The notes beneath the pieces were generated by a model. The model was given only the letters and a program-made list of their open reading frames with translations, was not told where the DNA came from and did not search any database. The position numbers and the translations under genes were made by a program. From Deroplatys truncata (lineage: Eukaryota > Arthropoda > Insecta > Mantodea > Mantidae), in contig CM060983.1 in the NCBI GenBank assembly GCA_030765065.1, positions 44,576,067 through 44,640,066 on the forward strand: 64,000 bases of DNA. Reading direction: 5' to 3'. Below, one piece after another: positions 32,081-56,139 of this stretch; position 1 is the first letter of the stretch, and each line of letters opens with the position of its first letter.

Positions 32081-32618
32081 TGACAGCCAGGTAACCTAGC
32101 CACTACACCACTAGAGATTGTTGTTAACGTTTGCTCTAAGAACGTTTTCACTACTGATCATCATTATGTATGCATAGAAGCAAAACAGATCCCATGCCGG
32201 GAATCGAACCCGGACCTCCTGGGTGAAAACTAGGTATCCTAGCCACTAGACCACATGGGATTGTTGTTTTCTTTTTCTCTAAGAACGTTTTCACTACCGA
32301 TCATCACTATGTATGCATAGAAGCAAAACAATTCCCATGCATGGAATAGAACCCGGAACTCCTGGGTGAAAGCCAGGTATCTTAGACACTAGACCACATG
32401 GGATTGTTGTTACATTTAGCTCTAAGAACGTTTGCACTACTGATTATCACTATGTATGCATAGAAGCAAAGATTTTCCCATGCCAGTAATCGAACCCGGA
32501 CATCTTGGGTGAAAGGCAGGTACTCTATCCACTAGACCACATAGGAGTTTTGTTTGTCTGTTACTGCAATAACGTTTTCACTGCCGATAATCACTATGTA
32601 TGCATAGAAGCAAAACAA

Positions 32619-32690
32619 TTCCCATGCCGGGAATCGAACCCGGACCACCTGGGTGAAAGCCAGGTACCCAAGCCACTAGACCACATGGGA
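32619..32690 (-). tRNA. tRNA-Glu-TTC: tRNA-Glu(UUC), near intact
   Basis: Acceptor, T-arm (GGTTCGATTCC) and anticodon arm (CCTGG, loop CTTTCAC, CCAGG) are perfect. The D-region carries changes (GGCTTGGGTA instead of GGCTAGGATA). TTTT follows in ATTGTTTTGC. Confidence 0.65.
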
Positions 32691-33038
32691 TTGTTGTTAT
32701 CTTTTGCTCTAATAACGTTTCCACTACCGATCATCAGTATGTATGTATAGAAGCAATTCACTTCCCTTACTGAGAATTGAACGCGGACGTGAGACAGTTA
32801 CCTTGGCGACTAGACCACATCGGATTGTTGTTCCTCATTTTTGCTGTAAGAACGTTTTAACTACAGATCATCACTATGTATGCATAGAAGCAAAACACTT
32901 CTCATGCCGGGAAACGAAAACGGACCTCCTGGGTGAGAGCCAGGTGTCCTAGCCACTAGACCACATGGGATTGTTACCTTTTGCTCTAAGAACGTTTTCA
33001 CTACAGATCATCACTATGTATACATAGAAGCAAAACAG

Positions 33039-33818
33039 TTACCAAAGCCGGGAATCGAAACCGGATCTTCTGGGTGAAAGCCAGGTTTTCTAGCCACTAG
33101 ACCGCATAGGATTATTGTAAACCCTTGCTCTAAGAACGTTTTCAATACGGATCATCACTATATATGTATAGAAGCAAAACACTTATCAAGTCGCGAATCG
33201 AACTAGGACCCCCTGGGTGAGAGGCAGGTATTCCAGCAACTAGACCATATGGGATTGCTGTTACCTTTTTCTCTAAGAACGTTTTCACTACTGATCATCA
33301 TTATGTATGCATAGAAGCAAAACTCCTCCCATGCCGTGAATTGAACCCAGAACTCCTGGGTGAGACACAGTTATCATAACCACTAGCCTACAAGGAATTG
33401 TTGTTACTTTTTGCTCTAAGAACGCTTTCACTACCAATCAACACTATGAATGTATAGAAGGAAAACACTTCTCATGCCGGGAAACGAAAGCGGATCTCCT
33501 GGGTGAAAGCGAGGTATCCTAGCCACTAGACCACATGGGATTTTTGTTTCTTTGTTACTGTAGTAACGTTTTCACTGCCCCTAATCACTAAGTATGTATA
33601 GAAGCAAAACACTTCCCATCCCGGGAATAAAACTCGGATCTCTCGGGTGAAAGATAGGTATCCTAGCCACTATATCAAATGGAAGTGTCGTCTTCTGTTG
33701 TTCTAATAACGTTTTCACCACCGATCATCAGTATCTATGTATAGAAGCAATTCACTTCCCTTGCTGAGAATTGAACGCGGACGTGAGACAGTTACCTTGG
33801 CCACTACACCACATCGGA
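33039..33818 (-). repeat. Six-unit segment repeated about 5.93 kb away
   Basis: Units 33039, 33183, 33326, 33469, 33613, 33756 correspond one by one to 38970, 39114, 39258, 39401, 39682, 39825. The offset is 5931-5932 bp for the first four and 6069 bp for the last two, because one extra unit (39537) is present in the right copy. Shared private changes support homology. Confidence 0.85.
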
Positions 33819-34172
33819 TTTTTGTTTCTTATTTTTGCTGTAAGAACGTTTTCACTACCGATCATCACTATGTATGCATAGAAGCAAAACAATTCCCATG
33901 CCGGGAATAGATCTCGGATCTATCGGGTGAAAGCCAGGTATCCTAGCCGCTAGATCACATGTAAATGTCGTTTTCAGTTGTTCTAATAAAGTTTCCACTA
34001 CCGATCATCAGTATGTATGTATAGAAGCAATTCTCTTCCGTTTCTGAGAGTTGAACGCGGACGAGGGACAGTTACCTTGGCGACTAGACCACATCGCATT
34101 GTTGTTCCTCATTTTTGCTGTAAGAACGTTTTCACTACCGATCATCACTATGTATGCATAGAAGCAAAACAA

Positions 34173-34244
34173 TTCCCATGCCGGGAATCGAACCCGGACC
34201 TCCTGGATGAGAGCCAGGTACCCTAGCCACTAGACCACATGGGA
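34173..34244 (-). tRNA. tRNA-Glu-CTC: tRNA-Glu(CUC), near intact
   Basis: Acceptor and T-arm are perfect. Anticodon loop is CTCTCAT (position 38 T) within paired CCTGG/CCAGG. One D-stem change (GGGTA). TTTT terminator present. Confidence 0.6.
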
Positions 34245-36569
34245 TTGTTGTTATCTTTTGCTCTAATAACGTTTCCACTACCGATCATCAGTATGTATGT
34301 ATAGAAGCAATTCACTTCCCTTACTGAGAATTGAACGCGGACGTGAGACAGTTACCTTGGCGACTAGACCACATCGCATTGTTGTTCCTCATTTTTGCTG
34401 TAAGAACGTTTTAACTACAGATCATCTCTATGTATGCATAGAAGCAAAACACTTCTCATGCCGGGAAACGAAAGCGGACCTCCTGGGTGAGAGCTAGGTA
34501 TCCTAGCCACTAGACTACATGGGATTGTTACCTTTTGCTCTAAGAACGTTTTCACTACAGATCATCATTATTATGTATAGAAGCAATTCAATTCCCATGC
34601 CGGGAATCGAACCCGGGCCTCCTGGGTGAAAGCCAGGTATCCTCGCCACTGGACCACACGGGATTGTTGTTACATTTTCTCTAAGAACGCTTTCACTACC
34701 AATCAACACTACGAATGTATAGAAGCAATACGCTTCTCATACCGTGAAACGAAAGCGGACCTCCTGGGTGAAAGCCAGGTATCCTCGCCACTGGACCACA
34801 CGGGATTGTTGTTACATTTTCTCTAAGAACGCTTTCACTACCAATCAACACTACGAATGTATAGAAGCAATACGCTTCTCATACCGTGAAACGAAAGCGG
34901 ACCTCCTGGGTGAGAGCCAGGTATCCTAGCCACTAGACCACATGGGATTGTTGTTACGGTTTGCTCTAAGAACGCTTTCACTGCCAATCAACACTACGAA
35001 TGTGTAGAAGCAACGCACTTCTCATACCGGGAAACGAAAGCGGACCTCCTGTGTGAAGGCCAGGTATCCTAGCCACTAGACGACATAGTATGGTTATTTT
35101 CTGTTTCTATAAGAACGTTTTTACTACCGATCATAACTATGTATACATAGAAGCAAAACACTTACCATGCCGGGAATCGAAACCGTATCTTCTGGGTAAG
35201 AGCCAGGTATTCTAGCCACTAGACCGCTTAGGATTGTTGTTACCCCTTGCTCTAAGAACGTTTTCAATACGGATCATCACTATGTAGGTATAGAAGCAAA
35301 ACACTTATCAAGTCGGGAATCGAACCAGGACCCCCTGGGTGAGAGGCAGGTAATCCCAGCCACTAGACCACATGGGATTGTTGTTACCTTTTTCTCTAGG
35401 AACGTTTTTACAACTGATCATCACTATGTATGCATAGAAGCAAAACACTTCCCATGCCAGTAATCAAACCCGGACCTACTGTTTGAGAGCCAGGTATCCT
35501 ATCCACTAGAGATTGTTGTTACCTTCTGCTCTAAGAACGTATTCACTACTGATCATCATTATGTATGCATAGAAGCAAATATCCCCCCATGCCGGGAATC
35601 GAACCCGAACCTCCTGGGTAAGAGCCAGGTATCCTAGCCACTAGAGATTTTTGTTACCTTCTGCTCTAAGAACTTTTTCACCACTGATCATCATTATGTA
35701 TGCATAGAAGCAAAACTCCTCCCATGCCGGGAATTGAACCCAGAACTCCTGGGTGAGAGCCAGTTATCCTAACCACTAGCCTACAAGTAATCGTTGTTAC
35801 TTTTTTCTCTAAGAACGCTTTCACTACCAATCAACACTATGAATGTATAGAAGGAAAACACTTCTCATGCCGGGAAAAGAAAGCGGATCTACTGGGTGAA
35901 AGCCAGGTATCCTAGCCACTAGACAACATCCGATTGTTGTTACCTCTTGCTCTAGGAACGTTTTCACTACTGATCATCCCTATGTATGCATAGAAGCAAA
36001 GATTTTCCCGTGCCGGTAATCGAACCCGGAAGTTTTGGGTGAAAGTCAGGTATTCTATCCACTAGACCACAGGTGACTTTTGTTTTTGTTATTGTAGTAA
36101 CGTTTTCACTGCCGCTAATCACTATGTATGCATAGAAGCAAAAGTTTTCCCTTGCCGGTAATCGAACCCGGGCGTCTTGGGTGAAAGGCAGGTATTCTAT
36201 CCACTAGACCACATGTGACTTTTGTTTTTTGTTACTGTAGTAACGTTTTCACTGCCGCTAATCACTATGTATATATAGAAGCAAAACACTTCCCAAGCCG
36301 GGAAGAGATCTCGGATCTATCGGGTGAAAGCCAGGTATCCTAGCCACTAGATCACATGTAAATGTCGTTTTCAGTTGTTCTAATAAAGTTTCCACTACCG
36401 ATCATCAGTATGTATGTATAGAAGCAATTCAGTTCCGTTTCTGAGAATTGAACGCGGACGTGAGACAGTTACCTTGGCGACTAGACCACATCGGATTGTT
36501 GTTCCTCATTTTTGCTGTAAGAACGTTTTCACTACCGATCATCACTATGTATGCATAGAAGCAAAACAA

Positions 36570-36641
36570 TTCCCATGCCGGGAATTGAACCCGGACCTCC
36601 TAGGTGAAAGTCAGGTATCCTAGCTACTAGACCACATGGGA
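36570..36641 (-). tRNA. tRNA-Glu-TTC: tRNA-Glu(UUC), near intact
   Basis: Acceptor perfect; T-loop TTCAATT. The anticodon stem has one mismatch next to the loop and one wobble (CCTGA with CTAGG). Loop CTTTCAC. Confidence 0.5.
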
Positions 36642-39600
36642 TTGTTGTTACTATTTGCTCTAAGAACGCTTTCACTACCAATCAAAACTATGAACGTATA
36701 GAAGAAAAACACTTCTCATGCCGGGAAACGAAAGCGGACCTACTGGGTGAGAGCAAGGTATCCTAGCCACTAGACCAGATGGGACTGTTACCTTTTGCTC
36801 TAAGAACGTTTTCACTACAGATCATCATTATGTATGTATAGAAGCAATTCAATTCCCATGCCGGGAATCGAACCCAGGCCTCCTGGGTGAAAGCCAGGTA
36901 TCCTCGCCACTGGACCACACGGGATTGTTGTTACATTTTGCTCTAAGAACGCTTTCACTACCAATCAACACTACGAATGTATAGAAGCAATACGCTTCTC
37001 ATACCGTGAAACGAAAGCGGACCTCCTGGGTGAAGGCCAGGTATCCCAGCCACTAGACCACATGGGATTGTTGTTACTATTTGCTCTAAGAACGCTTTCA
37101 GTACCAATCAACACTATGAACGTATAGAAGAAAAACACTTCTCATGCCGGGAAACGAAAGCGGACCTCCTGGGTGAGAGCCAGGTATCCTAGCCACTAGA
37201 CCACAGGCAATGGTTGTTTTTCTCTAAGAGCGATTTCACTACCCATTATCACTATGTATACATAGAAGCAAAACACTTCCCATGCCGGAAATATAAGCCG
37301 GACTTCCTGGGTGAAAGCCAGGTATCCTAGCCACTAGACCACATGGGATTTTTGTTACGTTTTGCTCTAAGAACGCTTTCACTACCAATCGACACTACGA
37401 ATGTATAGAAGCAATACGCTTCATATACCGGGAAACGAAAGCGGACCTCCTGGGTGAAGGCCAGGCATCCTAGCCACTAGACCACATGGTATGGTTATTT
37501 TCTGTTTCTCTAAGAACGTTTTTAATACCGATCATCACTATGTATACATAGAAGCGAAACACTTACCATGCCGGGAATCGAAACCGAATCTTCAGGGTAA
37601 GAGCCAGGTATTCTAGCAACTAGACCACATGAGATTGTTGTTACCTTTTGCTCTAACAACGTTTTCACTAGTGATCATCACTATGTATGCATACAAGCAA
37701 AATTTTCCCCTGCCGGTAATCGAACCCGGAGGTCTTGGGTGAAAGCACACTAGACCACATGGGATTTTTGTTTTTTGTTACTGTAGTAACGTTTTCACTG
37801 CCGCTAATCACTATGTATGTATAGAAGCAAAACACTTCCCAAGCCGGGAATAGAACTCGGATCTCTCGGGTGAAAGCCAGGTATCCTAGCCACTAGATCA
37901 CATGGAAGTGTCGTTTTCTGTTGTTCTAATAACGTTATCACCACCGATCATCAGTATCTATGTGTAGAAGCAATTCACTTCCCTCGCTTAGAAAATTGAA
38001 CGCGGACGTGAGACAGTTACCTTGGCCATTACACCACATCGGATTTTTGTTTCTTATTTTTGCTGTAAGAACGTTTTCACTACCGATCATCACTATGTAT
38101 GAAGATAAGCAAAACAATTCCCATGCCGGGAATCGATACCGGATTTTCTGTGTGAGAGCCAGGTATCCTAACCACTGACCGCATAGGATTGTTGTTACCC
38201 CTTGCTCTAAGAACGTTTTCACTACTGATCATCACTATGTATGCATAGAAGCAAAACGTTTTCCGTGCCGGTAATCGAACCCGGACGTCTCGGGTGAAAG
38301 GCAGGTATTCTATCCACTAGACCACATCTGACTTCTGTTTTTTGTTACCGTAGTAACGTTTTCACTGCCGCTAATCACTACGAATATATAGAAGCAAAAC
38401 ACTTCCCAAGCCGGGAATAGATCTCGGATCTATCGGGTGAAAGCCAGGTATCCTAGCCACTAGATCACATGTAATTGTCGTTTTCAGTTGTTCTAATAAA
38501 GTTTCCACTACCGATCATCAGTATGTATGTATAGAAGCAATTCACTTCCCTTACTGAGAATTGAACGCGGACGTGAGACAGTTACCTTGGCGACTAGACC
38601 ACATCGGATTGTTGTTCCTCATTTTTTGCTGTAAGAACGTTTTCACTACCGATCATCACTATGTATGCATAGAAGCAAAACAATTCCCATGTCGGGAATC
38701 GACCCCGAACCTCCTGGGTGAGAGCCAGCTATTCTAGCCACTAGACCACATGGGATTGTTGTTACGGTTTGCTCTAAGAACGCTTTCACTACCAATCAAC
38801 ACTACGAATGTGTAGAAGCAATACATTTCTCATACCGGGAAACGAAAGCTTACCTCCTGGGTGAAGGCCAGGTATCCTAACCACTAGACCACATAGTCGG
38901 GTTATTTTCTGTTTCTATAAGAACGTTTTTACTACCGATCATCACTATGTATACATAGAAGCAAAACAGTTACCAATGCCGGGAATCGAAACCGGATCTT
39001 CTGGGTGAGAGCCAGGTTTTCTAGCCACTAGACCGCATAGGATTAGTGTAAACCCTTGCTCTAAGAACGTTTTCAATACGGATCATCACTATATATGTAT
39101 AGAAGCAAAACACTTATCAAGTCGGGAATCGAACTAGGACCCCCTGGGTGAGAGGCAGGTAATCCCAGCAACTAGACCATATGGGATTGCTGTTACCTTT
39201 TTCTCTAAGAACGTTTTCACTACTGATCATCATTATGTATGCATAGAAGGAAAACTCCTCCCATGCCGGGAATTGAACCCAGAACTCCTGGGTGAGAGCC
39301 AGTTATCATAACCACTAGCCTACAAGGAATTGTTGTTACTTTTTGCTCTAAGAACGCTTTCACTACCAATCAACACTATGAATGTATAGAAGGAAAACAC
39401 TTCTCATGCCGGGAAACGAAAGCGGATCTCCTGGGTGAAAGCCAGGTATCCTAGCCACTAGACAACATCCGATTGTTGTTACCTCTTGCTCTAGGAACGT
39501 TTTCACTACTGATGATCACTATGTATGAATAGAAGTTTACCCCTGCCGGTAATCGAACCCGGACGTCTTGGGTCAAAGCCAGGTATCCTATCCACTAGAC

Positions 39601-39961
39601 CACATGGGATTTTTGTTTTTTTGTTACTGTAGTAACGTTTTCACTGCCCCTAATCACTAAGTATGTATAGAAGCAAAACACTTACCATCCCGGGAATAAA
39701 ACTCGGATCTCTCGGGTGAAAGCCAGGTATCCTAGCCACTATATCAAATGGAAGTGTCGTTTTCTGTTGTTCTAATAACGTTTTCACCACCGATCATCAG
39801 TATCTATGTATAGAAGCAATTCACTTCCCTTGCTGAGAATTGAACGCGGACGTGAGACAGTTACCTTGGCCACTACACAACATCGGATTTTTGTTTCTTA
39901 TTTTTGCTGTAAGAACGTTTTCACTACCGATCATCACTATGTATGCATACAAGCAAAACAA

Positions 39962-40033
39962 TTCCCATGCCGGGAATCGAACCCGGACCTCCTGGATGAG
40001 AGCCAGGTATCCTAGCCACTAGACCACATGGGA
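39962..40033 (-). tRNA. tRNA-Glu-CTC: tRNA-Glu(CUC), near perfect
   Basis: All stems pair. The only departure from the array consensus is T at position 38 in the anticodon loop (CTCTCAT). Box A, box B and the TTTT flank are intact. Confidence 0.75.
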
Positions 40034-40247
40034 TTGTTGTTACATTTTGCTCTAAGAACGTTTTCACTACTGATCATCATTATGTATGCATAGAAGCAAA
40101 ACCCTTCCCATGCCGGGAATGGAACCCAGAACTCCTGGGTGAGAGGCAGTTATCCTAACCACTAGCCCACAAGGGATTGTTGTTGCTGTTTGCCCTAAGA
40201 ACGCTTTCACTACCAATCAACACTATGAATGTATACAAGCAAAACAA

Positions 40248-40319
40248 TTCCCATGCCGGGAAACGAACCCGGACCTCCTGGGTGAAAGCCAGGTATCCTA
40301 GCCACTAGACCACATGGGA
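40248..40319 (-). tRNA. tRNA-Glu-TTC: tRNA-Glu(UUC), one T-loop change
   Basis: All stems pair. The T-loop reads TTCGTTT rather than TTCGATT, which alters the conserved A of box B. TTTT flank present. Confidence 0.65.
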
Positions 40320-42092
40320 TTGTTGTTACTATTTGCTGTAAGAACGCTTTCACTACCAATCAACACTATGAACGTATAGAAGCAAAACACTTCCCATGCC
40401 GGAAATAGAAGTCAGACTTCTTGGGTGAGAGCCAGGTATCCTAGCCACTAGACCACATGAGATGGTAATTTTTTGTTTCTCTAAGAGCGTTTTCACTACC
40501 CATCATAACTATGTATACATCTAAGCAAAACACTTCCCATGCCGGGAATCGAACCCGGACATTCTGGGTGAGAGCCAGGTATCCTAGGGACTAGACCACA
40601 TGGGATTGTTGTTAACTTTTGCTCTAAGAACGCTTTCACTACTGATCATCATTATGTATGCATAGAAGCAAAACTCTTCCCATGCCGGGAATCGAACCCG
40701 AACATCCTGGGTGAAAGGCAGGTATCCTAGCCACTAGACCACATGGGATTGTTGTTACGTTTTGCTCTAAGAACGCTTTCACTACCTATCATGACTATGA
40801 ATGTATAGAAGCAATACGCTTCTCATACCGGGAAACGAAGGCGGACCTCTTGGGTGAAGGCCAGGTATGCTAGCCACTAGACCTCATGGTATGGTTATTT
40901 TCTGTTTCTCTAAGAACGTTTTTACTACCGATCATCACTATGTATACATAGAAGCAAAACACTTCCCATGTCGGTAATCAAACCCGGACCTACTGTTTGA
41001 GAGCCAGGTATCCTAGCCACTAGAGATTTTTGTTACCTTCTGTTCTAAGAACTTTTTCACCACTGATCATCATTATGTATGCATAGAAGCAAAACTCCTC
41101 CCATGCCGGGAATTGAACCCAGATCTCCTGGGCGAGAGCCAGAAATCTTACCCGCTAGCCTAAAAGGAATTGTTGTTAGTTTTTGCTCTAAGAACGCTTT
41201 CACTACCAATCAACACAATGAATGTATAGAAGGAAAACACTTCTCATGCCGGGAAACGAAAGCGGATCTCCTGGGTGAAAGCCAGGTATCCTAGCCACTA
41301 GACCACATGGGATTGTTGTTTCGTTTTGCACTAAGAACGTTTTCACTACTGATCATCACTATGTATGCATAGAAGCAAAAGTTTTCCCGTGCCGGTAATC
41401 GAAACCGGGCGTCTTGGGTGAAAGGCAGGTATTCTATCCACTAGACCACATGTGACTTTTGTTTTTTGTTACTGTAGTAACGTTTTCACTGCCGCTAATC
41501 ACTATGAATGTATAGAAGCAGAACACTTCCCAAGCCGGGAATAGATCTCGGATCTATCAGATGAAAGCCAGGTATCCTAGCCACTAGATCACATGTAATT
41601 GTCGTTTTCGGTTGTTCTAATAAAGTTTCCACTACCGATCATCAGTATGTATGTATAGAAGCAATTCACTTCCGTTTCTGAGAATTGAACGCGGACGTGA
41701 GACAGTTACCTTGGCGACTAGACCACATCGGATTGTTGTTCCTCATTTTTTGCTGAAAGAACGTTTTCACTACCGAGCATCACTATGTATGCATAGAAGG
41801 AAAACAATTACCATGCCGGGATTCGAACCCGGACCTCCTGGCTGAAAGCCAGGTATCCTAGCCACTAGAACACATGGAATTGTTGTTACCTTTTGCTCTA
41901 AGAACGTTTTCACTACTGATCATCATTATGTATGCATAGAAGCAAAACTCTTCCCATGCCGGGAATCGAACCCAGAATTCCTGGGTGAGAGGCAGTTATC
42001 CTAACCACTAGCCCACAAGGGTTGCTGTTGCTGTTTGCTCTAAGAACGCTTTCACTACCACTCCACACTATGAATGTATACAAGCAAAACAA

Positions 42093-42164
42093 TTCCCATG
42101 CCGGGAATCGAACCCGGACCTCCTGGGTGAAAGCCAGGTATCCAAGCCACTAGACCACATGAGA
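42093..42164 (-). tRNA. tRNA-Glu-TTC: tRNA-Glu(UUC), near intact
   Basis: T-arm and anticodon arm perfect. One acceptor mismatch (5' strand TCTCATG against CATGGGA) and a D-loop change (GGCTTGGA). Confidence 0.6.
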
Positions 42165-42378
42165 TTGTTGTTACTGTTTGCTCTAAGAACGCTTTCACTA
42201 CCAATCAACACTATGAACGTATAGAAGCAAAACACTTCTCATGCCGGGAAACGAAACCGGACCTCCTGGGTGAGAGCCAAATATCCTAGCCACTAGACCA
42301 CATGGGATGGTTGTTTTATGTTTCTCTAAGAGCGTTTTCACTACCCATCATCACTATGTATACATAGAAGCAAAACAC

Positions 42379-42450
42379 TTCCCGTGCCGGAAATCGAACC
42401 CGGACCTCCTGGGTGAGAGCCAGGTATCCTAGCAACTAGACCACATGGGA
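42379..42450 (-). tRNA. tRNA-Glu-CTC: tRNA-Glu(CUC), near intact
   Basis: Anticodon arm perfect. T-stem has a G-U pair (GGTTCGATTTCC). One acceptor mismatch (3' strand CACGGGA). D-loop TAGTTGC. Confidence 0.55.
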
Positions 42451-44639: not shown

Positions 44640-44711
44640 TTCCCAAGCTGGGAATCGATCCCGGACCTCCTGGGTGAAAGCCAGGTATCCTAGCCACTAG
44701 ACCACATGGGA
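44640..44711 (-). tRNA. tRNA-Glu-TTC: tRNA-Glu(UUC), near intact
   Basis: Anticodon arm and D-arm perfect. Box B starts GGATCGATTCC, and the acceptor has one mismatch (3' strand CTTGGGA). Confidence 0.5.
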
Positions 44712-45489
44712 TGGTTGTTCTCTGTTTCTCTAAGAGCGTTTTCACTACCCATCATCACTATGTATACATCTAAGCAAAAACCTTCCCATGCCGATAATCA
44801 AACCCGGACCTACTGTTTGAGAGCCAGGTATCCTAGCCACTAGAGATTGTTGTTACCTTCTGCTCTAAGAACGTTTTCACCACTGATCATCATTATGTAT
44901 GCATAGAAGCAAAACTCCTCCCAAGCCGGGAATTGAACCATAATCTCCTGGGTGAGAGCCAGTTATCCTACCCACTAGCCTACAAGAGATTGTTGCTTCT
45001 GTTTGCTCTAAGAAGGCTTTCACTACCAATCAAGACTATGAATGTATACAAGCAAAACAATTCTCATGCCGGGAATCGAACCCGAACCTCCTGGGTGAAA
45101 GCCAGGTATCCTAGCCACTAGACCACATGGGAGTATTGTTACGATTTGCTTTAAGAACGCTTTCACTACCCATCATCACTATGTATACATAGGAGCAAAA
45201 CACTTCCCATGCCAGAAATAGAAGCCGGACGTCTTGGGTGAGAGCCAGGTATCCTCGCCACTAGACCACATGGGATGGTTATTTTCTGCTTCTCTAAGAG
45301 CGTTTACACTACCCATCATCACTATGTATACATAGAAGCAAAACTCTTCCCATGCCAGAAATAGAAGCCGGACGTCTTGGGTGAGAGCCAGGTATCCTAG
45401 CCACTAGACCACATGGGATGGTTATTTTCTGCTTTTCTAAGAGCGTTTACACTACCCATCATAACTATGTATACATAGAAGCAAAACAC

Positions 45490-45561
45490 TTCCCATGCCG
45501 GAAATCGAACCCGGAACTCCTGGGTGAGAGCCAGGTATCCTAGCCACTAGACCACATGGGA
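45490..45561 (-). tRNA. tRNA-Glu-CTC: tRNA-Glu(CUC), near perfect
   Basis: All stems pair, allowing one G-U in the T-stem. The variable loop is AGTT instead of AGGT. TTTT flank present. Repeated from 44360 at an offset of 1130 bp. Confidence 0.7.
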
Positions 45562-45912
45562 CTGTAACCTTTTGCTCTAAGAACGTTTTCACTACAGATC
45601 ATTATGTATGCATAGCAGCAAAATTCTTCCCATGCCGGGAATCGAACCCATAACTCCTGGGTGAGAGGCAGTTATCCTAAGCACTAGCACACAAGGGATT
45701 GCTAATGCTGTTTGCTCTAAGAACGCTTTCACTACCAATCAACACTATGAATGTATACACGCAAAACAATTCCCATGCCGGGAATCGATCCCGGACCTCC
45801 TGGGTGAAAGCCAGGTATCCTAGCCACTAGATCATATGGGAATTTTGTTTTCTGTTTCTCTAAGAGCGTTTTCACTACCCATCATCACTATGTATACATA
45901 GAAGCAAAACAC

Positions 45913-45984
45913 TTCCCATGCCGGAAATCGAACCCGGACCTCCTGGGTGAGAGCCAGGTATCCTAGCCACTAGACCACATGGGA
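45913..45984 (-). tRNA. tRNA-Glu-CTC: tRNA-Glu(CUC), near perfect
   Basis: Identical to the perfect CTC copies except for one C to T change that makes a G-U pair in the T-stem (GGTTCGATTTCC). Followed by AGTGTTTTGC with a T4. Confidence 0.8.
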
Positions 45985-46055
45985 TGGTTGTTCTCTGTTT
46001 CTCTAAGAGCGTTTACACTACCCATCATCACTATGTATACATAGAAGCAAAACAC

Positions 46056-46627
46056 TTCCCATGCCAGAAATAGAAGCCGGACGTCTTGGGTGAGAGCCAG
46101 GTATCCTCGCCACTAGACCACATGGGATGGTTATTTTCTGCTTCTCTAAGAGCATTTACACTACCCATCATCACTATGTATACATAGAAGCAAAACTCTT
46201 CCCATGCCAGAAATAGAAGCCGGACGTCTTGGGTGAGAGCCAGGTATCCTAGCCACTAGACCACATGGGATGGTTATTTTCTGCTTCTCTAAGAGCATTT
46301 ACACTACCCATCATCACTATGTATACATAGAAGCAAAACTCTTCCCATGCCAGAAATAGAAGCCGGACGTCTTGGGTGAGAGCCAGGTATCCTCGCCACT
46401 AGACCACATGGGATGGTTATTTTCTGCTTCTCTAAGAGCATTTACACTACCCATCATCACTATGTATACATAGAAGCAAAACTCTTCCCATGCCAGAAAT
46501 AGAAGCCGGACGTCTTGGGTGAGAGCCAGGTATCCTAGCCACTAGACCACATGAGATGGTAATTTTTTGTTTCTCTAAGAGCGTTTTCACTACCCATCAT
46601 AACTATGTATACATCTAAGCAAAACAG
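46056..46627 (-). repeat. Four near-identical 143-bp units in a row
   Basis: Units 46056, 46199, 46342 and 46485 share CAGAAATAGAAGCCGGACGT and the same spacer, with a perfect 143-bp pitch. They alternate ATCCTCGCC and ATCCTAGCC, so the original duplication step may have been two units (286 bp). All four belong to a decayed class (T-arm and box B lost). Confidence 0.9.
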
Positions 46628-46699
46628 TTCCCATGCCGGGAATCGAACCCGGACCTACTGGGTGAGAGCCAGGTATCCTAGCCACTAGACCACATAGGA
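46628..46699 (-). tRNA. tRNA-Glu-CTC: tRNA-Glu(CUC), near perfect
   Basis: T-arm and D-arm perfect. The acceptor has one change (5' strand TCCTATG against CATGGGA, a U-G pair), and the variable loop is followed by CCCAG. TTTT flank in ACTGTTTTGC. Confidence 0.7.
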
Positions 46700-46910
46700 T
46701 TGTTGTTACATTTTTCTCTAAGAACGTTTTCACTACTGATCATCATTATGTATGCATAGAAGCAAAACTCTTCCCATGCCGGGAATAGAACCCAGAACTC
46801 CTGGGTGAGAGGCAGTTATCCTAACCACTAGACCACATGGAATTGTTACCTTTTGCTCTAAGAACGTTTTCACTACAGCTCATCATTATGTATGTATAGA
46901 AGCAATTCAA

Positions 46911-46982
46911 TTCCCATGCCGGGAATCGAACCCGGACCTTCTGGGTGAGAGCCAGGTATTCTAGCGACTAGACCACATGGGA
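46911..46982 (-). tRNA. tRNA-Glu-CTC: tRNA-Glu(CUC), near intact, no proximal T4
   Basis: Acceptor and T-arm perfect. One mismatch closes the anticodon stem (CCTGG with CCAGA) and the D-arm has AGTCGC. The 3' flank is ATTGAATTGC, so the usual TTTT is missing. Confidence 0.5.
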
Positions 46983-47053
46983 TTGTTGTTAGCTTTTGCT
47001 CTAAGAACGCTTTCACTACTGATTATCATTATGTATGCATAGAAGCAAGACTC

Positions 47054-47125
47054 TTCCCATGCCGGGAATCGAACCCGAACCTCCTGGGTGAAAGCCAGGT
47101 ATCCTAGCCACTAGACCACATGGGA
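47054..47125 (-). tRNA. tRNA-Glu-TTC: tRNA-Glu(UUC), one T-stem mismatch
   Basis: Acceptor, D-arm and anticodon arm (loop CTTTCAC) perfect. The T-stem starts TCGGG instead of CCGGG, one mismatch. The 3' flank contains only AGTCTTGC, so the T4 is lost here. Confidence 0.6.
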
Positions 47126-47627
47126 TTGTTGTTACGCTTTGCTCTAAGAACGCTTTCACTACCTATCAACACTATGAATGTATAGAAGCAATACGCTTCT
47201 CATACCGGGAAACGAAGGCGGACCTCTTGGGTGAAGGCCAGGTATGCTAGCCACTAGACCTCATGGTATGGTTATTTTCTGTTTCTCGAACAACGTTTTT
47301 ACTACCGATCATCACTATGTATACATAGAAGCAAAACACTTCCCATGCCGGTAATCAAACCCGGACCTACTGTTTGAGAGCCAGGTATCCTAGCCACTAG
47401 AGATTGTTGTTACCTTCAGCTCTAAGAACGTTTTCACCACTGATAATCATTATGTATGCATAGAAGCAAAACTCCTCCCATGCCGGGAATTGAACCCAGA
47501 TCTCCTGAGTGAGAGCCAGTTATCCTACCCACTAGCCTAAAACGAATTGTTGTTAGTTTTTCCTCTAAGAACGCTTTCACTACCAATCAACACTATGAAT
47601 GTATAGAAACAAAACAATTCTCATGCC

Positions 47628-47699
47628 GGGAATCGAACGCGGACCTCCTGGGTGTCAGCCAGGTATCCTAGCCACTAGACCACATGGGATTGTTGTTAC
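47628..47699 (-). tRNA. tRNA-like with a GAC anticodon, otherwise tRNA-Glu
   Basis: The body is tRNA-Glu, but the anticodon loop reads CTGACAC, so positions 34-36 are GAC, the Val anticodon. The anticodon stem still pairs (CCTGG/CCAGG). The T-stem has one mismatch (CCGCG) and the acceptor one (3' strand CATGAGA). Probably a decayed copy, but as written it would be an anticodon-switched tRNA. Confidence 0.5.
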
Positions 47700-47903
47700 A
47701 TTTTGCTCTAAGAACGTTTTCACTACTGATCATCATTATGTATGCATAGAAGCAAAACTCTTCCCATGCCGGGAATCGAACCCAGAACTCCTGGGTGAGA
47801 GGCAGTTATCCTAACCACTAGCCCACAAGGGATTTTTGTTCCTGTTTCCTCTAAGAACGCTTTCACTACCAATCAACACTATGAATGTATACAAGCAAAA
47901 CAA

Positions 47904-47975
47904 TTCCCATGCCGGGAATCGAACCCGGACCTCCTGGGTGAGAGCCAGGTATCGTAGCCACTAGACCACATGGGA
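47904..47975 (-). tRNA. tRNA-Glu-CTC: tRNA-Glu(CUC), near perfect
   Basis: Acceptor, T-arm and anticodon arm perfect. One D-stem change (ACGAT for AGGAT). TTTT flank in ATTGTTTTGC. Confidence 0.75.
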
Positions 47976-48189
47976 TTGTTGTTACTATTTGCTCTAAGAA
48001 CCCTTTCACTACCAATCAACACTATGAATGTATAGAAGCAAAACACTTCCGATGACGGAAATAGAAGCCGGACTTCTTGGGTGAGAGCCAGGTATCGTAC
48101 CCACTAGACCACATGAGATGGTAATTTTTTGTTTCTCTAAGAGCGTTTTCACTACCCATCATAACTATGTATACATCTAAGCAAAACAC

Positions 48190-48261
48190 TTCCCATGCCG
48201 GGAATCGAACCCGGACCTCCTGGGTGAGAGCCAGGTATCCTAGCCACTAGACCACATGGGA
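48190..48261 (-). tRNA. tRNA-Glu-CTC: tRNA-Glu(CUC), perfect fold
   Basis: No mismatch in any stem: acceptor TCCCATG/CATGGGA, discriminator A, anticodon arm CCTGG-CTCTCAC-CCAGG, box A TGGTCTAGTGG, box B GGTTCGATTCC. The 3' flank AGTGTTTTGC supplies a T4 stop. It recurs unchanged at 49696 and 50688, in corresponding places of three related multi-unit blocks. Confidence 0.92.
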
Positions 48262-48417
48262 TTGTTGTTACATTTTGCTCTAAGAACGTTTTCACTACTG
48301 ATCATCATTATGTATGCATAGAAGCAAAACTCTTCCCATGCCGGGAATCCAACCCAGAACTCCTGGGTGAGAGACAGTTATCCTAACCACTAGCCCACAA
48401 TGCTACAAGCAAAACAA

Positions 48418-48489
48418 TTCCCATGCCGGGAATCGAACCCGGACCTCCTGGGTGAGAGGCAGGTATCCTAGCCACTAGACCACATGGGA
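48418..48489 (-). tRNA. tRNA-Glu-CTC: tRNA-Glu(CUC), one stem mismatch, minimal spacer
   Basis: Acceptor, D- and T-arms perfect. One anticodon-stem mismatch (CCTGC with CCAGG). Downstream only about 15 bp separate it from the next unit's 5' end, but the TTTT is kept (ATTGTTTTGC). Confidence 0.6.
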
Positions 48490-48703
48490 TTGTTGTTACT
48501 ATTTGCTCTAAGAACGTTTGCACTACCAATCAACACTATGAATGTATACAAGCAAAACAATTCCCATGCCGGGAATCGAACCCGGACCTCTTGGGTGAGA
48601 GCCAGGTATCCTAGCCACTAGACCACATAAGATGGTAATTTTTTGTTTCTCTAAGAGCGTTTTCACCACCCATCATAACTATGTATACATCTAAGCAAAA
48701 CAC

Positions 48704-48775
48704 TTCCCATGCCGGGAATTGAACCCGGACCTCCTGGGTGAGAGCCAGGTATCCTAGCCACTAGACCACATGGAA
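48704..48775 (-). tRNA. tRNA-Glu-CTC: tRNA-Glu(CUC), near perfect
   Basis: All stems pair. The acceptor second position is U-G (5' strand TTCCATG), and the T-loop is TTCAATT. TTTT flank present. Confidence 0.75.
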
Positions 48776-49695
48776 TTGTTACCTTTTGCTGTAAGAACGT
48801 TTCCACTACCAATCATCAGTTAGTATGTATAGAAGCAATTCAATTCCCTTACTGAGAATTGAACGCGGACGTGAGACAGTTACCTTGGCCAATAGACCAC
48901 ATCGGATTGTTGTTCCTCATTTTTGCTGTAAGAACGTTTTCACTACCGATCATCACTATGTATGCAGAGAACCAAAACAACTCCCATGCCGGGAATCGAA
49001 CCCAGAACTCCTGGGTGAGAGGCAGTTATCCTAACCTCTAGCCCACAAGAGATTGTTGTTTCTGTTTGCTCTAAAAACGCTTTCACTACCAATCAACACT
49101 ATGAATGTATATAAGCAAAACAATTCTCATGCCGGGAATCGAACCCGGACCTCCTGGGTGAAAGCCAGGTACCCCAGCCACAAGACCAGATAGGAGTATT
49201 GTTACGATTTGCTCTAAGAACGTTTTCACTACTGATCATCATTATGTATGCATAGAAGCAAAACTCTTCCCATGCCGGGAATCGAACCCAGAACTCCTGG
49301 GTGAAAGACCGTTATCCTAACCACTAGCCCACAAGGGAATTTTGTTGCTGTTTGCTCTAAGAACGTTTTCACTACCCATCATCACTATGTATACATAGAA
49401 GCAAAACACTTCCCATGCCAGAAATAGAAGTCGGACTTCCTGGGTGAGAGCTAGGTATCCTAGCCACTAGACCACATGGGATTGTTGTTACTATTTGCTC
49501 TAAGAACCCTTTCACTACCAATCAACACTATGAACGTATAGAAGCAAAACACTTCCGATGACGGAAATAGAAGCCGGACTTCTTGGGTGAGAGCCAGGTA
49601 TCGTACCCACTAGACCACATGAGATGGCAATTTTTTGTTTCTCTAAGAGCGTTTTCACCACCCATCATAACTATGTATACATCTAAGCAAAACAC

Positions 49696-49767
49696 TTCCC
49701 ATGCCGGGAATCGAACCCGGACCTCCTGGGTGAGAGCCAGGTATCCTAGCCACTAGACCACATGGGA
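49696..49767 (-). tRNA. tRNA-Glu-CTC: tRNA-Glu(CUC), perfect fold
   Basis: Sequence of the tRNA body identical to 48190-48261, with the same 3' flank and T4. It lies 1506 bp from that copy and 992 bp from the copy at 50688. Confidence 0.92.
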
Positions 49768-50124
49768 TTGTTGTTACATTTTGCTCTAAGAACGTTTTCA
49801 CTACTGATCATCATTATGTATGCATAGAAGCAAAACTATTCCCATGCCGGGAATCGAACCCAGAACTCCTGGGTGAGAGACAGTTATCCTAACCACTAGC
49901 CCACAAGAGATTTTTGTTGCTGTTTGCTCTAAGAACGTTTTCACTACCAATCAACACTATGAATGTATACAAGCAAAACAATTCCCATGCCGGGAATCGA
50001 ACCCGGACCTCTTGGGTGAGAGCCAGGTATCCTAGCCACTAGACCACATAAGATGGTAATTTTTTGTTTCTCTAAGAGCGTTTTCACCGCCCATCATATC
50101 TATGTATACATCTAAGCAAAACAC

Positions 50125-50196
50125 TTCCCATGCCGGGAATCGAACCCGGACCTCCTGGGTGAGAGCCAGGTATCCTAGCAACTAGACCACATGGAA
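50125..50196 (-). tRNA. tRNA-Glu-CTC: tRNA-Glu(CUC), near perfect
   Basis: Anticodon and T-arms perfect. One acceptor U-G pair (TTCCATG) and one D-loop change (AGTTGC). T4 present. Confidence 0.75.
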
Positions 50197-50401
50197 TTGT
50201 TACCATTTGCTGTAAGAACGTTTCCACTACCGATCATCAGTATGTATGTATATGAGCAATTCAATTCCCTTACTGAGAATTGAACGCGGACGTGAGACAG
50301 TTACCTTGGCCACTAGACCACATGGGATTGTTGTTCCTCATTTTTGCTGTAAGAACGTTTTCACTACCGATCATCACTATGTATGCAGAGAACCAAAAAA
50401 A

Positions 50402-50473
50402 TTCCCATGCCGGGAATCGAACCCGGACCTCCTGGGTGAAAGCCAGGTATCCCAGCCACTAGACCACATGGGA
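50402..50473 (-). tRNA. tRNA-Glu-TTC: tRNA-Glu(UUC), near perfect
   Basis: Acceptor, anticodon arm (loop CTTTCAC) and T-arm perfect. One D-loop change (GGCTGGGA). The 3' flank is ATTTTTTTGG, with an extended T-run. This is the best TTC copy inside the array. Confidence 0.8.
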
Positions 50474-50687
50474 TTGTTGTTACTATTTGCTCTAAGAACC
50501 CTTTCACTACCAATCAACACTATGAACGTATAGAAGCAAAACACTTCCCATGACGGAAATAGAAGCCGGAATTCTTGGGTGAGAGCCAGGTATCGTACCC
50601 ACTAGACCACATGAGATGGTAATTTTTTGTTTCTCTAAGAGCGTTTTCACTACCCATCATAACTATGTATACATCTAAGCAAAACAC

Positions 50688-50759
50688 TTCCCATGCCGGG
50701 AATCGAACCCGGACCTCCTGGGTGAGAGCCAGGTATCCTAGCCACTAGACCACATGGGA
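50688..50759 (-). tRNA. tRNA-Glu-CTC: tRNA-Glu(CUC), perfect fold
   Basis: Third identical perfect copy of the CTC gene (compare 48190 and 49696), with its T4. Flanked by the same neighbours as 49696, so it arose by block duplication. Confidence 0.92.
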
Positions 50760-51116
50760 TTGTTGTTACATTTTGCTCTAAGAACGTTTTCACTACTGAT
50801 CATCATTATGTATGCATAGAAGCAAAACTCTTCCCATGCCGGGAATCGAACCCAGAACTCCTGGGTGAGAGACAGTTATCCTAACCACTAGCCCACAAGG
50901 GATTTTTGTTGCTGTTTGCTCTAAGAACGTTTTCACTACCAATCAACACTATGAATGTATACAAGCAAAACAATTCCCATGCCGGGAATCGAACCCGGAC
51001 CTCTTGGATGAGAGCCAGGTATCCTAGCCACTAGACCACATAAGATGGTAATTTTTTGTTTCTCTAAGAGGGTTTTCACCACCCATCATAACTATGTATA
51101 CATATAAGCAAAACAC

Positions 51117-51188
51117 TTCCCATGCCGGGAATCCAACCCGGACCTCCTGGGTGAGAGCCAGGTATCCTAGCCACTAGACCACATGGAA
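51117..51188 (-). tRNA. tRNA-Glu-CTC: tRNA-Glu(CUC), near intact
   Basis: Anticodon and D-arms perfect. One acceptor U-G pair. The T-loop reads TTGGATT, which damages box B. Block-duplicate partner of 50125 (offset 992 bp). Confidence 0.6.
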
Positions 51189-51820
51189 TTGTTACCTTTT
51201 GCTGTAAGAACGTTTCCACTACCGATCATCAGTATGTATGTATAGAAGCAATTCAATTCCCTTACTGAGGATTGAACGCGGACGTGAGACAGTTACCTTG
51301 GCCACTAGACCACATCGGATTGTTGTTCCTCATTTTTGCTGTAAGAACGTTTTCACTACCGATCATCACTATGTATGCAGAGAACCAAAACAATTCCCAT
51401 GCCAGGAATCGAACCCAGAACTCCTGGGTGAGAGGCAGTTATCCTAACCACTAGCCCACAAGAGATTGTTGTTTTTGTTTGCTCTAAAAACGCTTTCACT
51501 ACCAATCAACACTATGAATGTATATAAGCAAAACAATTCTCATGCCGGGAAACGAACCCGGATCTCCTGGGTGAAAGCCAGGTACCCCAGCCACAAGACC
51601 ACATGGGAGTATTTTTACGATTTGCTCTAAGAACGTTTTCACTACTGATCATCATTATGTATGCATAGAAGCAAAACTCTTCCCATGCCGGGAATCGAAT
51701 CCAGAACTCCTGGGTGAAAGAGTTATCCTACCCACTAGCCCATAAGAGATTGTTGGTTTTGTTTGCTCTAAGAAGGCTCTCACTACCAATCAAGACTATG
51801 AATGTATACAAGCAAAACAA

Positions 51821-52464
51821 TTCTCATGCCGGGAATCGAACCCGAACCTCCTGGGTGAAAGCCAGGTATCCCAGCCACTAGACCACATGGGAGTATTGTT
51901 ACGATTTGCTTTAAGAACGCTTTCACTACCCATCATCACTATGTATACATAGGAGCAAAACTCTTCCCATGCCAGAAATAGAAGCCGGAAGTCTTGGGTG
52001 AGAACCAGGTATCCTCGCCACTAGACCACATGGGATGGTTATTTTCTGCTTTTCTAAGAGCGTTTACACTACCCATCATCACTATGTATACATAGAAGCA
52101 AAACACTTCCCATGCCAGAAATAGAAGCCGGAAGTCTTGGGTGAGAACCAGGTATCCTAGCCACTAGACCACATGAGATGGTTATTTTCTGCTTTTCTAA
52201 GAGCGTTTACACTACCCATCATCACTATGTATACATAGAAGCAAAACACTTCCCATGCCGGAAATAGAAGCCGGACGTCTTGGGTGAGAACCAGGTATCC
52301 TAGCCACTAGACCACATGAGATGGTACTTTTTTGTTTCTCTAAGAGCGTTTTCACTACCCATCATAACTATGTATACATAGAAGCAAAACACTTCCCATG
52401 CCGGAAATCGAACCCGGAACTCCTGGGTGAGAGCCAGGTATCCTAGCCACTAGACCACATGGGA
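51821..52464 (-). repeat. Five-unit segment repeated from 43788 at 8033 bp
   Basis: Units 51821, 51964, 52107, 52250 and 52393 match 43788, 43931, 44074, 44217 and 44360 with a constant offset of 8033 bp and shared private changes, showing transfer of a multi-unit segment across a large part of the array. Confidence 0.85.
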
Positions 52465-53918
52465 TTGTTGTTACGTTTTGCTGTAAGAACGCTTTCACTA
52501 CCAATCAACACTACGAATGTATAGGAGCAATACGCTTCTCATACCGGGAAACGAAAGCGCACCTCCTGCTTGAAGGCCAGGTATCCTAGCCACTAGACGA
52601 CATGGTATGGTTATTTTCTGTTTCTCTAAGAATGTTTTTACTACCGATCATCACTATGTATACATAGAAGCAAAACACTTACCATGCCGGGAATCGAAAC
52701 CGAATCTTCTGGGTGAGAGCCAGGTATTCTAACCACTAGACCACATAGGAGTGTTGTTACCCCTTGCGCTAAGAACGTTTTCAATACGGATCATCACTAT
52801 GTATGTATAGAAGCAAAACACTTATCAAGTCGGGAATCGAAGCAGGACCCCCTGGGTAACGGCAGGTAATCCCAGCCACTAGTCCACATGGATTGTTGTT
52901 ACCTTTTTCTCTAGGAACGTTTGCACTACCAATCATCACTATGTATGCATAGAAGCAAAACACTTCCCATGCCGGTAATCAAACCCGGACCTACTGTTTC
53001 ATAGCCAGGTATCCTAGCCACTAGAAATTATTGTTACCTTCTGCTCTAAGAACGTTTTCACTACTGATCATCATTATGTATGCATAGAAGCAGAACTCCT
53101 GGGTGAGAGCCAGTTATCCAAACCACTAACCTACAAGGAATTGTTGTTAGATTTTGCTCTAAGAACGCTTTCACTAACAATCAACACTATGAATGTATAG
53201 AAGGAAGACACTTCTCATGCCGGGAAACGAAAGCGGATCTCCTGTGTGAGAGCCAGGTATCCTAGCCACTAGACCACATGGTATTGTTGTTACCGTTTGC
53301 TCTAAGAACGTTTTCACTACTGATCATCACTATGTATGCATAGAAGCAAAAGTTTTCCCGTGCCGGCAATCGAACCCGGACGTCTTGGGTGAAAGACAGG
53401 TATTCTATCCACTAGACCACATGTGACTTTTGATTTTGTTACTGTAGTTACGTTTTCACTGCCGCTAATCACTATGTATGTATAGAAGCAGAACACTTCC
53501 CATGCCGAGAATAGAACTAGGAGCTCTCGGGTGAAAGCCAGGTATCCTAGCCACTAGATCACATGGAAGTGTCGTTTTCTGTTGTTCTAATAACGTTTCA
53601 CTACCGATCATCAGTATCTATGTATAAAACTAATTCACTTCGCTTGCTGAGAATTGTACGCGGACGTGAGACAGTTACCTTGGCCACTACACCACATCGG
53701 ATTTTTGTTTCTTATTTTTGCTGTAAGAACGTTTTCACTACCGATCATCACTACGTATGCAGAGAAGCAAAACAATTCCCATCATGGGGATCGAACCCGG
53801 ACCTCCTGGGTGAGAGCCAGGTATCCTAGCCACTAGACCACATTGGATTGTTGTTAGCTTTTGCTCTAAGAACGTTTTCACTACCGATCATCACTATGTA
53901 TGCATAGAAGAAAAACAA

Positions 53919-53990
53919 TTCCCATGCCGGGAATCGAACCCTGACCTTCTGGGTGAGAGCCAGGTAACCTAGCCACTACACCACATGGGA
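53919..53990 (-). tRNA. tRNA-Glu-CTC: tRNA-Glu(CUC), near intact
   Basis: Acceptor perfect. One mismatch each in the T-stem (CAGGG) and at the base of the anticodon stem. D-region GGTTA. TTTT flank present. Confidence 0.5.
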
Positions 53991-54196
53991 TTGTTGTTAT
54001 GTCCTGCTCTAAGAACGTTTTCACTACGGCTCATCACTATGTATGCATAGACGCAAAACACTTCCCATGCCGGGAATCAAACCTGCACCTACTGTTTGAG
54101 AGCCAGGTATCCTAGCCACTAGAGATTATTGTTATCGTTTGCTCTAAGAACGTTTTCACTACTCATCATCATTATGTATGCATAGAAGCAAAACAC

Positions 54197-54268
54197 TTCC
54201 CATGCCGGAAATTGAACCCGGACCTCCTGAATGAAAACCAGGTATCCTAGCCACTAGACCACATGGGA
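54197..54268 (-). tRNA. tRNA-Glu-TTC: tRNA-Glu(UUC), near intact
   Basis: Acceptor and D-arm perfect. T-loop TTCAATT with a G-U in the T-stem. The anticodon arm has changes on both sides of the loop (CCTGG-TTTTCAT-TCAGG), leaving U33 and anticodon TTC. Confidence 0.5.
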
Positions 54269-54912
54269 TTGTTGTTTTCTGTTTCTCTAAGAACGTTTTC
54301 ACTACCGATCATCACTATGTATGCATAGAAGCAAAACAATTCCGATAGCGGGAATCGAATCCGGAACTCCTGTGTGAGAGCCAGGTATCCTAGCCACTAG
54401 AACACATGGGATTGTTGTTACACTTTGCTCTAAGAACGTTTTCACTACTGATCATCACTATGTATGCATAGAAGCAAAAATGTTCCGGTGCCGGTAATCG
54501 AACCCGGACGTCTTGGGTGAAAGCCAGGTATTCTATCCACTAGACCACATGGGAATTTTGTTTTTTTGGTACTGTAATAACGTTTTCACTGCCGCTAATC
54601 ACTATGTATGTATAGAAGCAAAACACTTCTCATGCCGGGAATAGAACCCGGACCCCCTGAGTGAAAGGCACGTATCCTAGCCACTAGACCAGATTGGATT
54701 GTTGTAACGTTTTGCTGTAAGAACGCTTTCACTACCAATCAACACTATGAATGTAGAGAAGCAATACACTTCTCATGCCGGGAAACGAAAGTGAACCTCC
54801 TGGGTGAGAGACAGATATCATACCCACTAGACCACATGGGATTTTTATTTTCTTTATCTCTAAGAACGTTTTCACTACTGATCATAGTTATGTTTGTATA
54901 GACGCAAAACAC

Positions 54913-54984
54913 TTCCTATGCCGGCAGTCGAACCCGGACCTACTGGGTGAGAGCCAGGTATCCTAGCCACTAGACCACATGGGA
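54913..54984 (-). tRNA. tRNA-Glu-CTC: tRNA-Glu(CUC), near intact
   Basis: Anticodon and D-arms perfect. One change in the acceptor 3' strand (CATAGGA) and a T-loop change (TTCGACT). TTTT flank present. Confidence 0.6.
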
Positions 54985-55173
54985 TTGTTGTTACTTTTTG
55001 CTCTAAGAACGTTTTCACTACTGATCATCATTATGTATGCATAGAAGCAAAACACTTCCCATGCCGGAAATCGAACCCGGACCTCTTGGGAGAGAGTAAG
55101 ATATCCTAGCCACTAGACCACATAGGATTGTTATTTTTTGTTTCTGTAAGAACGTTTCACTACCGATCATCAC

Positions 55174-55739
55174 GTTTCGAAAATTTTAATTTTCTCAAAA
55201 ATGGCTCTAACAATTTTGATTAAAATATCATATGTTTAAGATATTTTCATGACAAATGAAATGCATATCTTGAATTTTCTGGGAATGTCTCCAAAAGTAT
55301 TCTTCACTGTGAACGACTTTTGCATAACTTTTAAACCATAAGAGATCTCGTATACGAAATTTTAGTATACAAAGAGTTAGATCGCGTTGAAATACACAAT
55401 TCGTATCATATACATTTTTTTGTTGGGTGAAACATTTTCGAGATATTGCTTGTTATTCCCTTAAATTTTCCCAATACTTATACTTTTTCTCAAATTCGTT
55501 ATTCATTTTTTTGTCCTGGTAATGCAAAGAGAATGGAATACTCCACATAGCAACCAGCTCTTAAAACATTTGACTATCGCTTAAAGCCTATCAATTCCCC
55601 TGCATCCACAAGAAAATTAGCAATAAGATTAACATCTGGATATCTCGATTAATATGAAGCATATGGGGAATAAGCGTTTTTAAAAATAGTTTATACAAGA
55701 GTAGAGAAAGTCATATGAGTGTAACACATCAGATTTTTT
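55174..55739 (+). mobile_element. R1 dispersed element, 5'-truncated, inserted in the tRNA array
   Basis: Starts within the GTTTCGAAAATTTTAATTTT block and runs to the normal 3' end (GTGTAACACATCAGATTTTT). It breaks the spacer of a tRNA-Glu unit: ACCGATCATCAC precedes it and TATCTGGTATGTACGCATAG follows. Confidence 0.8.
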
Positions 55740-56139
55740 CTATCTGGTATGTACGCATAGCAGCATCATAACTTCCTAAATCGGGAATTGAAAGCCGGAT
55801 GTCCTAGCCACTAGACCACATGGAAGCTGTTTCCCCCCCCCCTTTCTTTTTTTTTTTTTTCGCTGTTGTATTAACGTTTTCATTAGTGTCAACGCTGTGT
55901 GTATATAGAAGCAAAACAACTTGCTATGCCAGGAAAAGAAGCCGAGCCTCCCGAGGGTAAACTAGATATCTTACTCACCTATCCACATGTAACTGTTATA
56001 TATGTCGTACTAGTAATATTTTCGTTATTGTCATCACTATGTATGTCTTAAAAAAGAATAACAACTTCCCATGACGGAAATCAAACCCGCTCCTCATGGG
56101 CAAAAGGCCAGTCAGGCTAGCCACTAAATCACATGGGGC

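Follow-up and report, generated by a model that had tools for sequence, protein, structure and literature searches.

Why should one tRNA gene be repeated head to tail more than a hundred times in an insect genome, and are its copies kept as genes or carried along as a satellite? The question is raised by a stretch of 64,000 nucleotides from the mantis Deroplatys truncata, here called the window (C9:44576067-44640066, C9 being a chromosome-scale contig in an assembly of 4.29 Gb and 818 contigs). A search for Chitin_bind_4, a domain of arthropod cuticle proteins, yields 141 matches in this genome as compared to none in 14 prokaryote controls, in keeping with an arthropod. Between window positions 32081 and 56139, 165 units follow each other on the minus strand, each composed of a 72-nt tRNA-Glu body and a spacer of ~71 bp. 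In nhmmer searches with the consensus body and the consensus spacer as queries, all 165 bodies and all 164 spacer matches in the array lie on this strand. Of the 164 intervals, 101 have the modal pitch of 143 bp and 158 fall within 130-147 bp. Tandem Repeats Finder (TRF) reports the same period of 143 at 32081-48399 (score 16795), 48400-53096 and 53096-55173. The locus is a head-to-tail tandem tRNA array with many copies of a tRNA-bearing unit, and a first-pass annotation, which had described 163 minus-strand units with a mean pitch of 141 bp, each with a tRNA-Glu body or relic and a conserved spacer, was right within counting error. Runs of T generally serve as terminators of RNA polymerase III (Pol III); the consensus spacer starts with GTGTTTTG, including a run of four T (T4), a plausible terminator candidate. 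Overall, the locus is probably a tRNA-Glu gene array that was expanded and homogenised as a satellite, with a turnover largely blind to tRNA function.

The relationships among the units carry much of this answer. Grouping by similarity yields 13 recurrent types and seven single units, and 16 runs of three to six consecutive units recur at one lag with less than 8% divergence per unit; in 200 permutations of the unit order, the mean number of such runs was 0.225 and the longest comprised three units. The lags span 1-57 units, so that blocks were copied over varied distances. Between a unit and its nearest relative, the mean divergence is lowest in units 91-135 (0.026-0.028) and increases towards both edges (left 0.075, right 0.122): the core of the array is young and its edges are old. 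A long, homogenised tandem array of this age structure is what a satellite looks like, and the satellite-like expansion proposed in the first-pass annotation is borne out. Units that can no longer encode a tRNA were multiplied as well: 11 units share a 9-nt deletion that extends from the anticodon into the stem, eight lack the 5' acceptor strand and four belong to a third type, and none of these 23 units attains 29 bits in the covariance-model search described below.

These observations suggest the following course of events. A tRNA-Glu gene with ~70 bp of flank would first have been duplicated in tandem; satellite-like expansion and homogenisation may then have proceeded via repeated unequal exchange or a similar block duplication. 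Units would have turned over largely regardless of whether they still encoded a working tRNA, fresh copies filling the core and dying copies accumulating at the edges. The pattern of blocks and ages is as expected of unequal exchange acting mostly in mid-array, and unequal exchange is presumably the agent of array growth.

Could the array owe its length to the assembly? Tandem repeats are difficult to assemble, and the copy number could be off in the most uniform core, but inflation of a short array by misassembly is highly improbable: the units differ by 21% on average, the window is free of gaps (N count 0), and both the age gradient and an interspersed repeat inserted at the right edge (~55175-55739) would be hard to obtain by misassembly. 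This insertion cuts off the last three of the 165 units (55788-56139, minus strand), which are relics. Four other near-full-length copies of the repeat lie in the window (7338-7904, 12773-13337, 21345-22139 and 59005-59576), together with fragments, and TRF finds an internal 231-bp direct duplication in one copy.

How many units still look like tRNA genes? The Rfam model RF00005 finds 99 matches of at least 29 bits in the array, with scores of at least 50 bits in 40 and of at least 55 bits in 33; 98 of the 99 can be assigned to a unit, the remaining one being partial. Foldable tRNAs are thus present, and the refuting outcome named in the first-pass annotation, that nearly no unit folds as a tRNA, did not arise, yet the majority of the 165 units score below 50 bits. 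Of the 78 ARAGORN calls in the array, 75 are Glu and one is unresolved; the other two are a Gln(TTG) unit at window 39538-39609 (37.1 bits) and a Val(GAC) unit at 47618-47689 (52.8 bits). Among the 40 units of at least 50 bits the anticodon is CTC in 21, TTC in 18 and GAC in one. Their share is 23 of 55 in units 81-135 (43582-51319, minus strand), the youngest part, as compared to 14 of 80 to the left and 3 of 30 to the right. Of the three tRNA-Glu(CTC) bodies with the highest scores in the array, one (66.9 bits; called by both ARAGORN and Rfam) lies in this youngest part at 48190-48261 (minus strand), and the other two at 49696-49767 and 50688-50759.

Such numbers might suggest a functional dosage array, in which selection for a greater supply of tRNA-Glu (possibly just in oocytes or a single tissue) drove the expansion and dead units are tolerated by-products. 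A T4 run follows 36 of the 40 units of at least 50 bits, the share of CTC anticodons peaks in the young core (42 of 55), and a precedent exists in the Arabidopsis SYY cluster, which is described as silent in most tissues and reactivated in root tips (PMC12308677). Against selection for dosage stand the multiplication of dead types and the neutral-looking body, stems and variant frequencies, as follows.

Stem pairs are broken 3.68 times per unit, as compared to 3.65 +/- 0.11 in simulations that give each unit its own number of substitutions and the mutation spectrum of the spacer, and nine compensatory double changes were observed where 28 were expected. Divergence amounts to 0.119 in the body and 0.111 in spacer positions 73-127, the spacer core; the two are alike within G/C sites (p 0.86) as well as within A/T sites (p 0.87). 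The ratio of rare to common variants does not differ between body and spacer (odds ratio 1.02, p 1.0; 0.66, p 0.14 when the spacer tail is omitted), nor does it in an array of tRNA-Ala units on the same contig (1.42, p 0.44) or in a sister array of tRNA-Glu units termed E (1.25, p 0.69), both located below. A cluster kept by selection should have a better conserved body and stem-preserving changes; neither appears in these comparisons, and for the array as a whole the tests made give no clear indication of selection for tRNA function.

Several results weigh against a turnover blind to function. The whole spacer is more diverged than the body (0.143 vs 0.119; p 0.005 per unit), a difference due to a variable spacer tail that diverges by 0.253; apparent over the entire spacer, the signal of selection on the body is gone once this tail is set apart. 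No broken pair is found in 20 of the 165 units, vs 0.2% in a star-like simulation, an excess that we would tentatively attribute to the unequal ages of the units. The T4 run is retained behind a larger share of the units of at least 50 bits than of the units without a 29-bit match (38 of 67). Finally, selection could act on a few units unnoticed, since these tests treat the whole array as one. A dosage array is nevertheless unlikely, given its conflict with the bulk of the comparisons.

In 53 disjoint close pairs of units, the body changed more than the spacer at G/C sites (108/2235 vs 38/1342, p 0.003), whereas A/T sites were alike (29/1515 vs 51/2322). Mutation associated with transcription was considered as well: in close pairs of the main array, C>T changes outside CpG were concentrated in the body (24/842 vs 1/417 in the spacer). 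This signal is not replicated in the Ala array (9/650 in the body vs 9/633 in the spacer) or in array E (2/117 vs 3/77), and the idea was dropped.

The equal divergence of body and spacer core bears also on a role in chromatin, in which the run of TFIIIC sites would act as a boundary or the repeat, being nucleosome-sized, would serve packaging. The pitch near 143 bp would suit the latter, and CTCF is reported to bind the human 1q23.3 tRNA repeat, for which a boundary role was proposed (PMC4041453). In the present array, the spacer contains no motif conserved beyond the level of the body, and we regard a chromatin role as very unlikely.

Whether the array could matter for tRNA supply depends on the genes elsewhere. 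These were counted with an exact 32-letter anticodon-arm pattern; as this strict pattern leaves the 3' half out of account, its matches represent cores rather than proven genes. The genome contains 110 such cores, 49 CTC and 61 TTC. The main array accounts for 25 of them (19 of 49 CTC, 6 of 61 TTC), sister array A for two TTC and array E for 14 TTC, neither having a CTC core; the cluster at C9:44.59-44.65 Mb comprises 41 of 110 in all. The suggestion in the first-pass annotation that the locus could dominate the tRNA-Glu gene count may therefore hold for raw units, but does not hold for exact cores. Outside the cluster lie 30 of 49 CTC and 39 of 61 TTC cores, which argues further against expansion for dosage and rules out a restriction of the CTC anticodon to the array. 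The ~40 better units presumably add little to the supply from these genes and may be partly or wholly silent.

Fifteen non-array Glu bodies were compared (loci L035-L046 and L050). Ten are identical over their 72 nt and carry C47, T47 is found in two, and the other three deviate in other ways; judged by eye, a T4 or longer run follows closely behind all 15, and three bodies on C3 have mutually similar flanks. In the main array, 156 of 165 units carry T47, so the common C47 sequence is not replacing the units of this array.

The main array is not the only one of its kind: a point beyond the first-pass annotation is that the genome contains several tRNA arrays of short pitch. Four further groups of tRNA-Glu units lie within 60 kb of it. 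Array A (window 18475-19546, minus strand; nhmmer, Rfam) has eight units with a pitch of 142-149 bp and a spacer of its own, one of which (19185-19256) scores 68.4 bits. The relic cluster B (window 27021-27692; nhmmer) holds six Glu-like matches, four on the minus and two on the plus strand, and cluster D (locus L031, 2957-4149) holds seven to eight Glu matches. Array E, ~6.8 kb past the window end (C9:44646851-44650765, plus strand), comprises 28 units; 17 of them score at least 50 bits, one more is cut by the locus border, and in the right half of the array the pitch is 141-142 bp for the most part. A more distant array of eight Glu units with a ~160-bp pitch is located on another contig (L034, 1200-3000; C6:149.798-149.800 Mb); transposase-like reading frames are seen by eye on both of its sides, which raised the idea that this array might have arisen within a transposon. 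Also in the window, a tRNA-Ile(TAT) of 92 nt, perhaps with an intron, is called at 28996-29087 (plus strand, 51.2 bits).

The spacers of the main array, A, D, E and the C6 array resemble each other more than shuffled sequences in nine of ten pairs (z 3.1-7.6; D/C6 1.3). In a control with the flanks of four single genes, two of 20 comparisons exceeded z 2.5 (E/L039 2.8, E/L045 4.0), and the weaker z values between spacers are therefore of little weight. The simplest reading of these similarities is that the Glu arrays would be remains of one ancestral array that broke up, and the local sister arrays presumably descend from it.

The distribution of the spacer also speaks to whether the unit is a tRNA-derived short interspersed nuclear element (SINE) or other mobile element that became tandem by chance. 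SINEs usually begin with a tRNA head, and so does the unit. A mobile family would combine this head with an unrelated, dispersed body; among the best candidates of the genome search, all matches that cover the spacer lie inside C9:44.59-44.65 Mb, and matches elsewhere end by query position 90 of 166. With its spacer confined to one locus, the unit does not behave as a mobile family, and such an origin is extremely improbable.

Other tRNA kinds form arrays as well. Four kinds were searched (Glu, Ala, Asp and Gly), and only the best candidates were scored, so that the counts are lower bounds. A tRNA-Ala(TGC) array with 119 body matches occupies C9:138441752-138457934 (L047 and L048), with pitches of 142 bp (45 intervals), 129 bp (31) and 144 bp (24); as many as 96 of its 106 Rfam matches reach 50 bits, so that its preservation is well above that of the main Glu array. 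Its calls also include Val(TAC) and Thr(TGT). Three more short-pitch Ala arrays (L054-L056) were found: one at C9:140031958-140032738 (145 bp pitch, 5.6 copies), which matches at 99% and is therefore apparently very young, and two on C11, at 181280591-181319074 (~150 bp) and 181541180-181548036 (165 bp). tRNA-Asp runs with a pitch of ~129-156 bp are located at C6:148.44-148.47, 149.06 and 149.31-149.41 Mb (coordinates among the best 150 of 230 matches), a region of C6 that they share with Glu genes. For tRNA-Gly(GCC), with at least 42 matches, there is little sign of short-pitch arraying: one group of three copies is spaced at ~170 bp, and the cluster at C11:57.16-57.42 Mb has kilobase spacing (e.g. 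4397 and ~4875 bp). In addition, four tRNA-Thr genes lie ~838-840 bp apart in L049, 1442-4033 (C16:161.194-161.197 Mb), for which ARAGORN gives the anticodon AGT once and CGT three times; a nearby fifth one is Thr(TGT).

Among the three Ala spacers examined, those of C9:138.44 Mb and C11, and between these and the Glu spacers, no comparison exceeds z 2.5, and several array births therefore look independent. Six units of the C9:138.44 Mb array carry a TAA anticodon while keeping G3.U70, at 55-64 bits (L047 4761, 5877, 6419 and 8207; L048 164 and 3456). Alanyl-tRNA synthetase recognises G3.U70 and not the anticodon; if transcribed, these units would place alanine at leucine UUA codons. One might speculate that individual tRNA genes, to date those for Glu, Ala and Asp, repeatedly become short-pitch satellites via independent births, the arrays being a nursery that multiplies anticodon-changed tRNAs such as the Ala units with a UAA anticodon; we consider this generalisation doubtful at present.

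The satellite behaviour of the main array has practical consequences. Gene counts serve as a proxy for tRNA supply. In this genome, a satellite that propagates dead copies as readily as live ones contributes a large part of the tRNA-Glu count; automatic tRNA counts for such genomes would therefore mislead. The several arrays, of differing tRNA kinds and apparent ages, also provide a natural series on how a tRNA gene becomes a satellite, which bears on whether tandem growth is favoured by Pol III genes themselves and on how cells tolerate the multiplication of tRNA genes whose anticodons have changed.

Tandem tRNA arrays have been described in Entamoeba (PMC2652664), Arabidopsis (PMC12308677), humans (PMC4041453) and zebrafish (PMC11574265). 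Entamoeba has long head-to-tail tRNA arrays homogenised by concerted evolution; there, nearly all tRNA genes are reported to be arrayed, in 25 kinds of units with up to five genes each, and copies are mostly uniform (PMC2652664). Here, there is one gene per 143-bp unit, intact genes exist also elsewhere and most units are decayed; since many single Glu genes remain outside the arrays, this is not a system of the Entamoeba type. The Arabidopsis Pro and SYY clusters share tandem duplication, interspersed pseudogenes and an expanded core with the mantis array; SYY units, in contrast, contain three genes each, and their silencing and reactivation were demonstrated (PMC12308677).

Zebrafish chromosome 4 is another animal case, with tRNA genes clustered in very large numbers; their copy number is reported to be unrelated to tRNA level and their CpG methylation to be near-complete (PMC11574265), and neighbouring pairs are mostly of different tRNAs (PMC2888827), whereas each mantis array is dominated by one. 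The human 1q23.3 repeat is likewise tandem and tRNA-bearing, with an unstable copy number as a feature of the human locus, but its unit measures 7.3 kb, of which tRNA is less than 6% (PMC4041453); here, tRNA makes up half of the unit. In Nematostella and teleosts, clusters of at least 50 members occur, and clusters include tRNA pseudogenes; pairs in Nematostella are mostly heterogeneous, drosophilid clusters are small, and the portion of this survey that was seen shows no arthropod array of the main-array kind (PMC2888827). Among the literature matches listed (titles and starts of abstracts, few subscription journals), none described an arthropod satellite built from one tRNA gene, which is weak evidence. 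By its anatomy, the main array is a tandem tRNA gene array with satellite behaviour; what looks new is that a single arthropod genome contains several one-gene arrays for different kinds of tRNA, and to the new features we would add the single gene per 143-bp unit and the near-neutral turnover of live and dead units.

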